From Owenweeksia sp. (GTDB lineage: Bacteria > Bacteroidota > Bacteroidia > Flavobacteriales > Schleiferiaceae): a stretch of DNA of 64,000 bases. The stretch lies in the NCBI GenBank assembly GCA_028285465.1, contig JANQPD010000030.1:141673-205672 (forward strand), read 5' to 3'. Shown here piece after piece: positions 8,443 through 27,776 of the stretch; position 1 is the stretch's first letter, and the number at the start of each line of letters is the position of its first letter. A program made the position numbers and the translations under genes. The notes below the pieces were generated by a model, which was not told the origin of the DNA, searched no databases, and saw only the letters and a list, made by a program, of their open reading frames with translations.

Positions 8443-8952
8443 CTAGAAATTACAATTCTTTTTCATAACCTCCGAACCAGTACTAATCCATTGATCTTTA
8501 TAAACGGATTCGAAACATAACTCCATTTCGAGTTTGTTTTCCATACATGCCATAAACAACAATTCACTCCATTTGGCATCCGTTGATCTAACAAGGTAAA
8601 ATGAGGAATTAGCTGGTAGTACTTTCTTTTGAAAGTCGTTTTTGTAATGCGGTATTTGTGACGTTCCAACAAGCTCAGCAATCAAAGAATCCAAGTTGGG
8701 TTGTACTTTATTGTTTAGCTTAATTCTCTTGTGGGTAATCAATGCAGGGCCTATACCCTTATTAGAAATTACTATTTTGAAACCCTCGTTTTGATTGTAT
8801 GTGTATTGCCATTCTACGTAAGGCCAAACCGATGCTTTCTGTTGTTCTTGCATTAAATCTGTCTGGTAGATGTATACAAAGACGGTTACCAGGTTGATTA
8901 AAATAGCTATTAAGCCGATGATCACTCCGTTGTTTATTGTTTTTCTTGCCAT
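8443..8952 (-). CDS. Hypothetical single-TM membrane protein
   Basis: Start chosen at MARKTINNGVIIGLIAILINLVTVFVYIYQ; the 9036 start is TTG. Confidence 0.55.
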   Translation of the reverse strand: MARKTINNGVIIGLIAILINLVTVFVYIYQTDLMQEQQKASVWPYVEWQYTYNQNEGFKIVISNKGIGPALITHKRIKLNNKVQPNLDSLIAELVGTSQIPHYKNDFQKKVLPANSSFYLVRSTDAKWSELLFMACMENKLEMELCFESVYKDQWISTGSEVMKKNCNF

Positions 8953-9114
8953 GTTAATCGTTTTATCAAAGAAAGTGTATCCCTTTCGAATAGCTTTCCC
9001 TTTAGATGGTTGCTTAGCTCCGTTTGCATTAAACAATCGCTAACGGCCGTGTATATGGCACGTGTCCCGTAGGGAATGTGCTATGCATGGTGTTAGCAGT
9101 TTTTTATTTTTTCT

Positions 9115-9501
9115 TCATTTTAATTTCTTCTCACAAATATCGAAAGTCAATGTGTCTTCTAGATCAGGTGTAAAATGTATTATACAGGCTGAATCCTCGA
9201 TAAATAAAAGGTCATCAACTTTTTTGTTGTCTTTGTACAGATACACAGGATAATAATATGGCCCTGCAAATCCTATACATTTCTTCTCTATAATCACGTA
9301 TTCTTCAATTTCCCATATTTGGTTGTCTTCGCATTTTGCACCGAATGCTTCTGACACTATATGAAGAAATAGATACCATCCCGCAACTATTAGTACGATC
9401 AAGCTACCCACGGTCCATAGTAATGCCTTCCATCTTTTTCGTACTGCAAGCCAAATAATCAAGATCAGTATTGGTATTAGTAAAAGATAGAGTAGTGTCA
9501 T
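9115..9501 (-). CDS. Hypothetical membrane-anchored protein
   Basis: 128-aa ORF with N-terminal hydrophobic region MTLLYLLLIPILILIIWLAV; flanked by palindromic sequences. Confidence 0.55.
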   Translation of the reverse strand: MTLLYLLLIPILILIIWLAVRKRWKALLWTVGSLIVLIVAGWYLFLHIVSEAFGAKCEDNQIWEIEEYVIIEKKCIGFAGPYYYPVYLYKDNKKVDDLLFIEDSACIIHFTPDLEDTLTFDICEKKLK

Positions 9502-9641
9502 TCTTTAAATTGCCGCTAACGTTAGTATAATAGCACCCTCGTTACTATAGTAAGCCATTTGCCCCAGCTACACTCGTCTTTAATTACTTCATAAACAGCA
9601 TCATATGTAGGATTAAGCAACTATAAGCGTTTATTCCCGGC

Positions 9642-24499: not shown

Positions 24500-24859
24500 A
24501 AAGGGAAAAACAAATAGTGGTTGAAACCTACTCTTTGCTTAGCTCTACACTTCAAGAGATTTTACTAAGGTTATTTCCCTTCCGCAACTCTACCGTGTAA
24601 GGGACCATGTGAAAGCTACTCGTATATAAGCTCCTCATTAAGGGATCGGCTCACATTTGCTGTAACCAGTACTGACGTAGCATGCTTCTTGTTTTCTCAT
24701 CCGTTTGTGCATGTCTTTTCGCATGCATGCCAATGGCCTGGGGTACGCGGTGTAGGGCTTTGGGGCTGTATACATGCTTACCGAAACGGAGCTGGTTAAG
24801 AACCCTGAGCTTTCGGAAGCCGCCCCCGCCCTACCTTTTATGCCTATTGTGGCAGACCG

Positions 24860-25342
24860 CTATTTTATGCTTTTTTTCATGGTCCAGGCAGTCTCTGTTT
24901 CCTCTACAATTTCACAGCCAAGCCGTTTGTAAAGGTTAGCCGCATTATTGGCTTTGTCTACGCTCAACGACAAATGTTCAACCCCAATTTTCTGGTATGC
25001 AGAAGCTATTGCCTTTATCAACTCAGTTCCTATGCCCTTGTTCCGGTATTCGGTTTTGACGGCCATGCTCAATTCCGGTGTGTGGTCGTCCACATAACCA
25101 AATCCTTTGTTCTCTTCCGTGAAAAGGCGCCCCCAGATGGCCCCTACAGCTTGCTCGTCTGCTTCCACCACTAAGGCAATATCAAATTTATCCTTACCCC
25201 AATGGTCAATATACTTTGATAACGACTTATCGGCAATCACCTCCCTGGGTAAGGCTTTATGTCCTTCAGGAACAAAAATCGCTTCGTAGAGCATGTCGGC
25301 TAAAAAGTCTGTTTCTTCTGCTTGTAATTTTCTGATCGTCAT
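24860..25342 (-). CDS. GNAT family N-acetyltransferase
   Basis: LSMAVKTEYRNKGIGTELIKAIASAYQKIGVEHLSLSVDKANNAANLYKRLGCEIV. Confidence 0.92.
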   Translation of the reverse strand: MTIRKLQAEETDFLADMLYEAIFVPEGHKALPREVIADKSLSKYIDHWGKDKFDIALVVEADEQAVGAIWGRLFTEENKGFGYVDDHTPELSMAVKTEYRNKGIGTELIKAIASAYQKIGVEHLSLSVDKANNAANLYKRLGCEIVEETETAWTMKKSIK

Positions 25343-25538
25343 GTTTTTCTAATGCATTCCTGTTAATGGTACCAAACGTGCGCTGACATTTCGCGCTATA
25401 GCTGCCGTTCCTACGAACAACCCACCTATTGAATCGGTAAGCAAACGGGCAATCCCGATCCCGAGCATTACATTTCTATTTACATATTTGTTCGAGCATC
25501 TTATTTCCATGGTGTTTATTATTAGATGTGTAGTAACT

Positions 25539-25586
25539 GTTTGGCTAAGCACAGTAACCTGAAGGACATTGCGCATAGGTTTTGTT
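25539..25586 (-). repeat. Intergenic palindromic repeat R2 (homologous to R1)
   Basis: Minus strand AACAAAACCTATGCGCAATGTCCTTCAGGTTACTGTGCTTAGCCAAAC; aligns with R1. Confidence 0.7.
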
Positions 25587-25596
25587 TGATGCAGTT

Positions 25597-26094
25597 CTAT
25601 TTAATTTCCTTCAGCCCTGCTGCCCTATTTTTCAAATTCCAGATGCCAGCAAGAGGAAAAAGAACAATCCACATAAGCAGTGCCATATCAAAAAAACCGT
25701 CTTTTCTATTTTCTTTCTTTAACCACCTTTTAGAAATTGACCTGCTACGAATTAATTCTGATGCTAAGTAGATAATTAGCCAAACTAATTCTAGGCTGGA
25801 TTCAAAGAATAATAGCTCACCAAAGAAAAAAAGAAGGGTAACAATTGATATGTAAGAAGTTATTCCGGGAAAAGGTACTTTAGTAACTTGGTTTGCTATG
25901 AGCGTTGTGTATAGGATTAAACAAGCTGTAGATATCCATGCACCTATTGCGAATAAGCTTAAAGAAACCCAAAGCTCAAAAGATTTTAAAGTAAAAGCTG
26001 CCGCCATTACTCCAAGAAGCGCTGGGAGCAAAGCAATTGATAGAGCCATATCAGGCTTTAAAGAATAGATCTTTTCTTGAATTGTCCTTCTCAT
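25597..26094 (-). CDS. Hypothetical membrane protein
   Basis: 165-aa ORF with several TM segments (MALSIALLPALLGVMAAAFTL...). Confidence 0.6.
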   Translation of the reverse strand: MRRTIQEKIYSLKPDMALSIALLPALLGVMAAAFTLKSFELWVSLSLFAIGAWISTACLILYTTLIANQVTKVPFPGITSYISIVTLLFFFGELLFFESSLELVWLIIYLASELIRSRSISKRWLKKENRKDGFFDMALLMWIVLFPLAGIWNLKNRAAGLKEIK

Positions 26095-26229
26095 AATTGT
26101 ACCTATCGACTCTGGCTAAAGCTAGTGCAGTAATCATTCAGGTTATAAGTTTACAAGATTAAAGATATAACTTTTGTGCTCTTTCAACTGCTTTGAAACA
26201 TTAGTTTTATACGTTGTTGGGAGTAGTTT

Positions 26230-27183
26230 TTATTTCTTATTGTTGTCTATCCATTTGTAGGATTCCTCAAAAGTATTTTCAGTATCCACAGATACTATTT
26301 CTGGATGAATAGGTCCACCATTGCCTGTTTTATTTCTGTCTGTCATTATACCGCTAGCTATGTTGAATTGAAAACTATCAGGCATTAGTATAGGAGTTAT
26401 GTCTGTTGATACACCATAAGTTGGCTCACCTATCAATCTTGTTTTTGAGTTTCCACGAAAGGCTAAGGCCAGTAATTCACCGGCACTGCCCGTTCTACCG
26501 CCAATGAGAACTGCGGCAGGTAAGGTTTCGTCAAAGGTCCAAACACTATCCGATAGTAAAAGATAGTCGGCATCACTTTTGGCATAGTAGTATTCTTGTG
26601 ATGAACCGTTCGGAAAGAGAGTATAGGCTTTAACACCCCTTCCAAGGATTGGACCTAAACCGGCAAACATGGCAGGAGCCCAGCCTCCATTGTTATACCG
26701 GAGATCAATGATCCACCCGGCCGGCTTCTGTTGGTATAGATTTGAAAGCATGTTCTGGAGGCTGTCGCAATAGTTATCCGCAGCAATAGAATCTCCTCCC
26801 GAAAAACCGTACAGCGAAACAAATGCATATTTCCCATTGATCAGCTTTCCTTGAAACGGAAAAGGATTATTCAGCACCTCCGGATTTTCCCCTTCCAACA
26901 TTTGCACCCACTTTTCCTTTCGCAACACGTAGCTGTGCTTGTCAATAGAGTGTATGGCCTTCTCCAATATATTGTGTAATGCTTCTTGTGATGTAGAGTC
27001 AGACACCGTCAAGAGCAAAGCCTTCTCAAGAGAGTCAAAATTATATGTGGACTGGTAAAGAGAATAATGCTCTAAACTATCAATTGCCTGACTTACATAT
27101 TCCTCCTGGGGGATTGAATCCGGCTGATTTACACAGCTGAGCATACCAAAGCTCAACAAGGGCAGAAGAAACATCTTTTTCAT
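26230..27183 (-). CDS. S41 family (C-terminal processing-like) peptidase lipoprotein
   Basis: Lipobox MLSCVN; GWIIDLRYNNGGWAPAM and LIGGRTGSAGELLALAFRG motifs. Confidence 0.88.
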   Translation of the reverse strand: MKKMFLLPLLSFGMLSCVNQPDSIPQEEYVSQAIDSLEHYSLYQSTYNFDSLEKALLLTVSDSTSQEALHNILEKAIHSIDKHSYVLRKEKWVQMLEGENPEVLNNPFPFQGKLINGKYAFVSLYGFSGGDSIAADNYCDSLQNMLSNLYQQKPAGWIIDLRYNNGGWAPAMFAGLGPILGRGVKAYTLFPNGSSQEYYYAKSDADYLLLSDSVWTFDETLPAAVLIGGRTGSAGELLALAFRGNSKTRLIGEPTYGVSTDITPILMPDSFQFNIASGIMTDRNKTGNGGPIHPEIVSVDTENTFEESYKWIDNNKK

Positions 27184-27198
27184 AAGTAATGCCTGATG

Positions 27199-27252
27199 GT
27201 TTTGCTAAGCGCAGTAGCGTTCCGCAGGACGCTATTGCTTATAGGTTTTGTT
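27199..27252 (-). repeat. Intergenic palindromic repeat R1 (homologous to R2)
   Basis: Minus strand AACAAAACCTATAAGCAATAGCGTCCTGCGGAACGCTACTGCGCTTAGCAAAAC; hairpin AAGC(gc)AGTAGCGT/ACGCTATTGCTT. Confidence 0.7.
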
Positions 27253-27642
27253 GGGGTTTCGTTTTATTTTTTCATTTTTAATGGTGGTTAATACTCCAAG
27301 GAATACCGGAGTCAATAAAATTGCGGTTGCATAAAAGTACATGTTCGCATAAATATTCCATTTAATGAACATAAAAAGGTCGGTTCCTATCATCAATAGA
27401 TATATTCCCAAAGCCATTAGTTGTAGTTTTAAACTTGCCGAACTTCCTGTTCTTGCCAGCTTAATTAATTGAAATACGCGGAAAATCACAGCAACGGTAA
27501 TTCCGATATTTATCAAAACCCTAATCGGTGTTAACTCAAAATAAAATGGGGTCGAGAGTTTTCCGTCAAAACGTCCCCATGCAAAAGCATAAAGTATAAA
27601 TACCAGCAATATAATTTCAAGTATAGTTATCGTTCTTTTCAT
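27232..27642 (-). CDS. Hypothetical membrane protein
   Basis: Start chosen at MKRTITILEIILLVFILYAFAWG; four TM-like segments; 3' end overlaps repeat R1. Confidence 0.6.
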   Translation of the reverse strand: MKRTITILEIILLVFILYAFAWGRFDGKLSTPFYFELTPIRVLINIGITVAVIFRVFQLIKLARTGSSASLKLQLMALGIYLLMIGTDLFMFIKWNIYANMYFYATAILLTPVFLGVLTTIKNEKIKRNPNKTYKQ

Positions 27643-27661
27643 AATGAACCCCAACGTTTGT

Positions 27662-27695
27662 ATAAACGCACCCTGGGTTGCCAGGGTGCGTTTAT
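27662..27695. repeat. Perfect hairpin (15-bp arms, GTTG loop)
   Basis: ATAAACGCACCCTGG-GTTG-CCAGGGTGCGTTTAT. Confidence 0.95.
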
Positions 27696-27776
27696 TTTTA
27701 GTTTCCCCGTCCTGCAATTTACATTTTTCAAAGGACTGCCCACCCCCTATCTTTACCGCCCTTTCACACAGAAAAC

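Follow-up and report, generated by a model that had tools for sequence, protein, structure and literature searches.

What are the four unrelated minus-strand ORFs that lie side by side in an Owenweeksia sp. genome (Schleiferiaceae, Bacteroidota), and what could have assembled them? The window analysed here is the whole stretch of 64,000 nucleotides that contains them. The initial annotation took the ORFs and the structured DNA between them for an integrase-less, CALIN-like cluster or for an uncharacterised Bacteroidetes cassette system. We suggest that both descriptions apply. The cluster is very probably a short, integrase-less and partly decayed cassette group of a Bacteroidota integron-like system, and the enzyme behind it is most likely a recombinase related to XerA and IntI that is encoded on another contig of this genome, C80.

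Cassettes and attC-like sites in the window

ORF and Pfam calls confirm all four genes (GNAT, 165-aa, S41 and 137-aa), and the motifs CCCCAAC (27250-27256), TCCCAAC and GTTGGGG (27649-27655) are found on the minus strand where they had been reported (Table 1). Bare heptamers are not evidence, because YYYAAC occurs 228 times in the 64-kb window; the evidence lies in whole sites. A simple pattern, CCCAAC..TATAA, did no better than its reversed control and was rejected. Rfam gave zero matches within the window. Three covariance models were used: R1, made of four copies (two from the window, two from further contigs of this genome); R2, for the long site type, with 24 training sites picked largely via chain detection; and R3, from 24 short-type sites. 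None of the R3 training sites comes from the window, because circularity was to be avoided. Over the window R3 finds three sites, and the next match is noise (E 0.89).

Table 1. Genes and sites of the two cassette clusters in the window
Feature	Position	Strand	Details
Cassette gene 4, GNAT acetyltransferase	24860..25342	-	160 aa; Pfam 3.5e-14
Probable decayed site E7	25343..25420	-	CGTAGGAAC..TATAGCGC..GCGCACGTTTGGTACC; inspection only
attC-like site E4 (short type)	25526..25594	-	R3 E 2.8e-11
Cassette gene 3, membrane-like ORF without family	25597..26094	-	165 aa; no Pfam match
Weak attC-like site E5 (long type)	26099..26224	-	R2 15.3 bits; TCCCAAC at 26216-26222
Cassette gene 2, S41-family peptidase	26230..27183	-	317 aa; Pfam PF03572 1e-21
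attC-like site E1 (short type)	27186..27260	-	R3 E 3.0e-11
Cassette gene 1, small membrane-like protein	27232..27642	-	136 aa from ATG ("137-aa gene")
Complete cassette 1	27250..27655	-	GTTGGGGTT at 27655-27647, AACCCCAAC at 27258-27250
Outer site E6	27640..27710	-	hairpin arms 27662-27676/27681-27695, terminating ..TTATACAAACGTTGGGG
Second cluster, 197-aa ORF	8443..9036	-	
Second cluster, attC-like site	9033..9102	-	R3 E 1.7e-4; R2 23.9 bits
Second cluster, 128-aa cassette ORF	9115..9501	-	
Second cluster, decayed long site	9525..9640	-	terminating ..TTATACTAACGTTAGCGG; inspection

The best-preserved unit is cassette 1, whose start GTTGGGGTT and end AACCCCAAC are reverse complementary at 9/9 nt. 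The stop codon of the 137-aa gene lies inside E1, a site with a copy on contig C43 of the same genome (82% identical, E 1.7e-9). E6 marks the start of this cassette (GTT at 27655). Its hairpin (27662-27695) is perfect over 15 bp, with a fold z of -4.8, and the site is similar to the right half of attC/attI sites, with the left R'' box not recognised. The TCCCAAC boundary is only weakly attC-like (E5, R2 E 0.005 in 4.5 kb and 0.3 in 266 kb), and a recognisable end of the GNAT cassette was not found. Likewise, the gap between the GNAT and 165-aa genes holds one clear site, E4, while the second, E7, is decayed and seen by eye, with no covariance model picking up its interval. A perfect start/end match in 1/4 of the window cassettes, together with the weak E5 and the missing GNAT end, counts against our explanation. 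Even so, with E1 and E4 strong, E5 weak and E6 at the outer edge, the cluster has the at least two attC sites and the lack of a nearby integrase by which a CALIN is defined. Beyond the GNAT gene, at 24745-24862 on the minus strand, a strong fold (z -3.98) is present that is not attC-like.

The palindromes set apart single small ORFs. The cassette genes have a GC content of 0.34-0.44 vs 0.51-0.55 in neighbouring housekeeping genes and, where tested, almost no homologues among 395 class genomes. The 137-aa gene has matches in 3/395 of these, its own genome included, and its best homologue (53% identity, in genome G318) lacks attC-like flanks. For the S41 peptidase, no close relative was found among 59 relatives, only distant ones. 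The S41, 137-aa and 165-aa genes showed no useful synteny in the relatives compared, all from other genera, and no cassette elsewhere was seen to carry any of the window genes, which also counts against the cassette reading. That YYYAAC is common and E5 weak could be taken to mean ordinary operon-like accessory genes with motifs by chance. We regard this as extremely unlikely, since R3, trained outside the window, matches window sites at 3e-11, and the genes are unrelated, low in GC and nearly devoid of homologues.

A second cassette cluster (8443-9640, minus strand), absent from the initial annotation, lies downstream of dapA.

The recombinase of the same genome

The statement that no integrase is visible holds for the window but not for the genome. 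Contig C80 encodes a 381-aa tyrosine recombinase (L070:3674-4819, minus strand), followed by an array on its own strand. Five successive barcoded cassettes (GTTGGCAGCA, GTTGGCAAC, GTTGTAAGGC, GTTGTAGCAT and GTTGTGTGT) show perfect 9-10 nt start/end complementarity. The palindromes recur as the initial annotation proposed: R2 matches 17 places at E <=1, spread over several contigs of the genome (12 have E <1e-4), and R1 has matches in 18/60 relatives, in some of them clustered on one strand. R2 places further sites on C34, C43, C57, C67, C37 and C47. Scattered cassettes are therefore nothing unusual for this genome, and the cluster in the window is one of these satellites.

Every catalytic residue is conserved in the Bacteroidota integrases. 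The KGxxDR-HxLRHS spacing is 65-66 aa in most of them vs 107 in most canonical IntI: the IntI-specific insert of ~42 aa is missing, and a counterpart of IntI4 residues 185-245 is absent. The TIGR02249 score, 236.5, is under the 265-bit cut-off, while the C80 integrase clears that of NCBIfam NF040815 (227 vs 220 bits). In a quick maximum-likelihood tree, computed with no bootstrap and with a long-branched XerC/D outgroup, the IntI proteins group in one clade (SH-aLRT 100), outside which the Bacteroidota integrases form a group of their own (90); archaeal and CPR XerA-like proteins are nearer to IntI (82). XerA proteins function in chromosome dimer resolution. The C80 integrase shares with XerA-type recombinases the NF040815 cut-off and the core fold of 5hxy, but its gene heads cassette arrays and it carries an added N-terminal domain.

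The ~90 N-terminal residues have the fold beta-beta-alpha-beta-beta-alpha. This domain resembles HARP below the usual thresholds, in three weak and related lines: 2/10 proteins match Pfam HARP (PF07443) with 18.3-18.5 vs the 25-bit cut-off (E 0.0015-0.0017), the profile comparison with 4o66 (SMARCAL1 HARP) gives E 0.13, and the best PDB fold match is again 4o66 (E 0.095, prob 0.84). The integrase profile matches 206/395 class genomes at 1e-60, a count of profile matches and not of arrays, and some of these genomes have an integrase without the N-terminal domain.

Array geometry, barcodes and a shared cassette

Scanning the integrase alignment against GTDB species genomes yielded named Bacteroidota isolates, among them Seonamhaeicola, Winogradskyella, Algibacter, Rufibacter and Aquiflexum. 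In every Bacteroidota array locus examined the recombinase adjoining the array is insert-less. Among the 21 testable loci, 15 have barcoded chains of at least 2 cassettes downstream of the integrase and 1 has them upstream; canonical IntI loci of the same scan show the reverse pattern (6/8 upstream). Of the model-defined sites in integrase loci, 87/89 are downstream on the integrase strand. Both exceptions belong to L127 (82-218 and 1556-1693, minus strand) and are upstream on the opposite strand, like those of canonical integrons. At about 962-1010 kb of G028:C1 (L064-L066), several tens of small ORFs with attC-like sites between them form an array on one strand, and no integrase of the C80 type is among the matches of that genome. 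Because of this array and the upstream sites of L127, the linkage of integrase and array is not universal. Draft contigs stop within 5 kb of the integrase on its 3' side in 51/82 cases and on its 5' side in 7/68 (Fisher p 4e-11), which fits an array side that is repetitive or differs between strains.

Since detecting sites by chains alone is circular with respect to complementarity, sites were redefined by covariance models and training sites excluded. In cassettes with a model-defined site on either side (n = 79), the six variable start and end bases match at 6/6 in 79.7%; the figure is 1.0% when both ends of a single site are compared and 1.3% in random pairing. R2 training sites being mostly chain-detected, a recount was made without any training site, and the match persists in 35/50 (70%). 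Both halves of a cassette's own site are thus found on that cassette, which is what one would expect of units that circularise. The long-site stem shows a covariation of 0.549 vs 0.161 when shuffled (0/500), and 91% of its cells are paired vs 28-35% in slid controls. Thus, the sites are imperfect hairpins with AAC/GTT ends, as in attC, and a barcoded first cassette starts ~25-150 nt after many integrase stops, as expected of an attI beside the integrase, though at another position than in IntI integrons. A very uniform short site, with ~54 nt between boxes and a GGCCGACGGCC loop, is found in L108 (Rufibacter), compared with a 118-nt type elsewhere.

Two genera belonging to one family share a cassette with exact boundaries. 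A 664-nt stretch with 90% DNA identity is common to the G028 array (G028:C1:994584-995247) and an array of G018 (L090), where the sites flanking it differ in type. On one side the similarity stops at AACA, on the other just past the GTT box; the end boxes are GCAGCTAAC and GCAGGTAAC. In G018 the start box, GTTACCTGC, is a full match to its own end; that of G028, CTTAGCTGT, is decayed at two positions, and its base at the position differing between the copies still matches its own end. Presence and absence bounded at the sites, proposed as a check by the initial annotation, is hence observed between two genera, for this shared cassette and not for the window's own genes.

These data bear on whether the sites could be MITE-like or REP-like intergenic repeats, or terminators, rather than recombination sites. 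Short-type sites are indeed near-palindromes that recur in intergenic DNA. However, the cassette-specific barcodes pair across the gene and not across the repeat, nearly all sites are on the integrase's strand, and the similarity of the shared gene stops at AAC, so we consider this explanation very unlikely.

A less remote, though still improbable, explanation is that canonical IntI integrons gave rise to an ordinary CALIN here, with classical attC sites moved by a canonical IntI that is elsewhere or lost. Reviews already list Bacteroidota among the integron-bearing phyla (PMC8618304), and the site logic is shared, as canonical IntI loci show the same extended barcodes (a Paraglaciecola chain of 7). 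Upstream of intI in that genus's canonical integron (L176), start/end complementarity of 8-12 nt exceeds the 7-nt core. As a distinguishing feature of the Bacteroidota system, barcodes were rejected, since canonical IntI arrays share them. Against a canonical origin, the integron-integrase cut-off is passed by none of the window's genome and 59 relatives, the recombinase beside the arrays is insert-less, and the array geometry is reversed. Moreover, the core that the initial annotation had called an imperfect match is GTTRRRY in only 10/104 sites and GTTR in 101/104; canonical IntI arrays in the scan also stray from RRRY at times.

A possible second kind of integron

The Bacteroidota system shares with canonical integrons the one-ORF cassettes, one-strand arrays, GTT/AAC core, attI beside the integrase, hairpin sites with a variable terminal part, and start/end complementarity within the cassette. 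It differs in the integrase, which lacks the IntI insert, branches outside IntI and has the extra N-terminal HARP-like domain; in the array, which extends downstream of the integrase 3' end on the same strand, whereas that of IntI diverges from the 5' end; and in the core, GTTR without RRRY. Like a CALIN, the window cluster combines several sites and cassettes but has no integrase close by; unlike it, the cluster is related to an insert-less system and some of its sites are decayed. We favour, with reservation, a second and widespread kind of integron in Bacteroidota, with a non-IntI integrase whose HARP-like domain may read the folded attC in place of the insert.

Parts of this have been anticipated. 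The name of NCBI NF040815 already couples a XerA-like recombinase with integron integrase. For Bacteroidetes, the IntegronFinder 2.0 paper gives nothing beyond In0 elements from earlier work and a single complete integron, that of Salinibacter (PMC9024848), and the work on archaeal integrons relies on the additional domain for its definition (PMC9668308). The available text of PMC8138268 mentions no cassette arrays for members of its 'integron-like' recombinase subgroup. A description of an insert-less Bacteroidota integron, and of its array linkage, geometry and barcodes, was not found in the open-access literature; to this extent the system is uncharacterised, as the initial annotation supposed.

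By analogy with integrons, we suggest the following mechanism. The recombinase would insert circular cassettes by a cut within the GTT core, at an attI directly past its own stop codon (TATAnACnAGTT|R...). Each attC would be recognised as a folded single-strand hairpin, and the HARP-like domain would perhaps bind the ss/ds junction, as the insert does in IntI. Cassettes would then build up downstream, on the same strand as the integrase. Satellites such as the window cluster may be left behind when cassettes occasionally enter secondary sites or when the integrase is lost.

In the integron literature the extra IntI domain is taken to be both defining and essential, and few complete Bacteroidota integrons have been reported. 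The recombinase being of a different kind, current integron rules may overlook the Bacteroidota system. If our reading is true, a different type of gene-capture integrase is present in about half of the sampled class genomes, together with large pools of uncatalogued cassettes, and recognition of attC without the IntI insert would seem possible. If these are indeed a second kind of integron, they would represent a parallel solution to single-strand cassette recombination.
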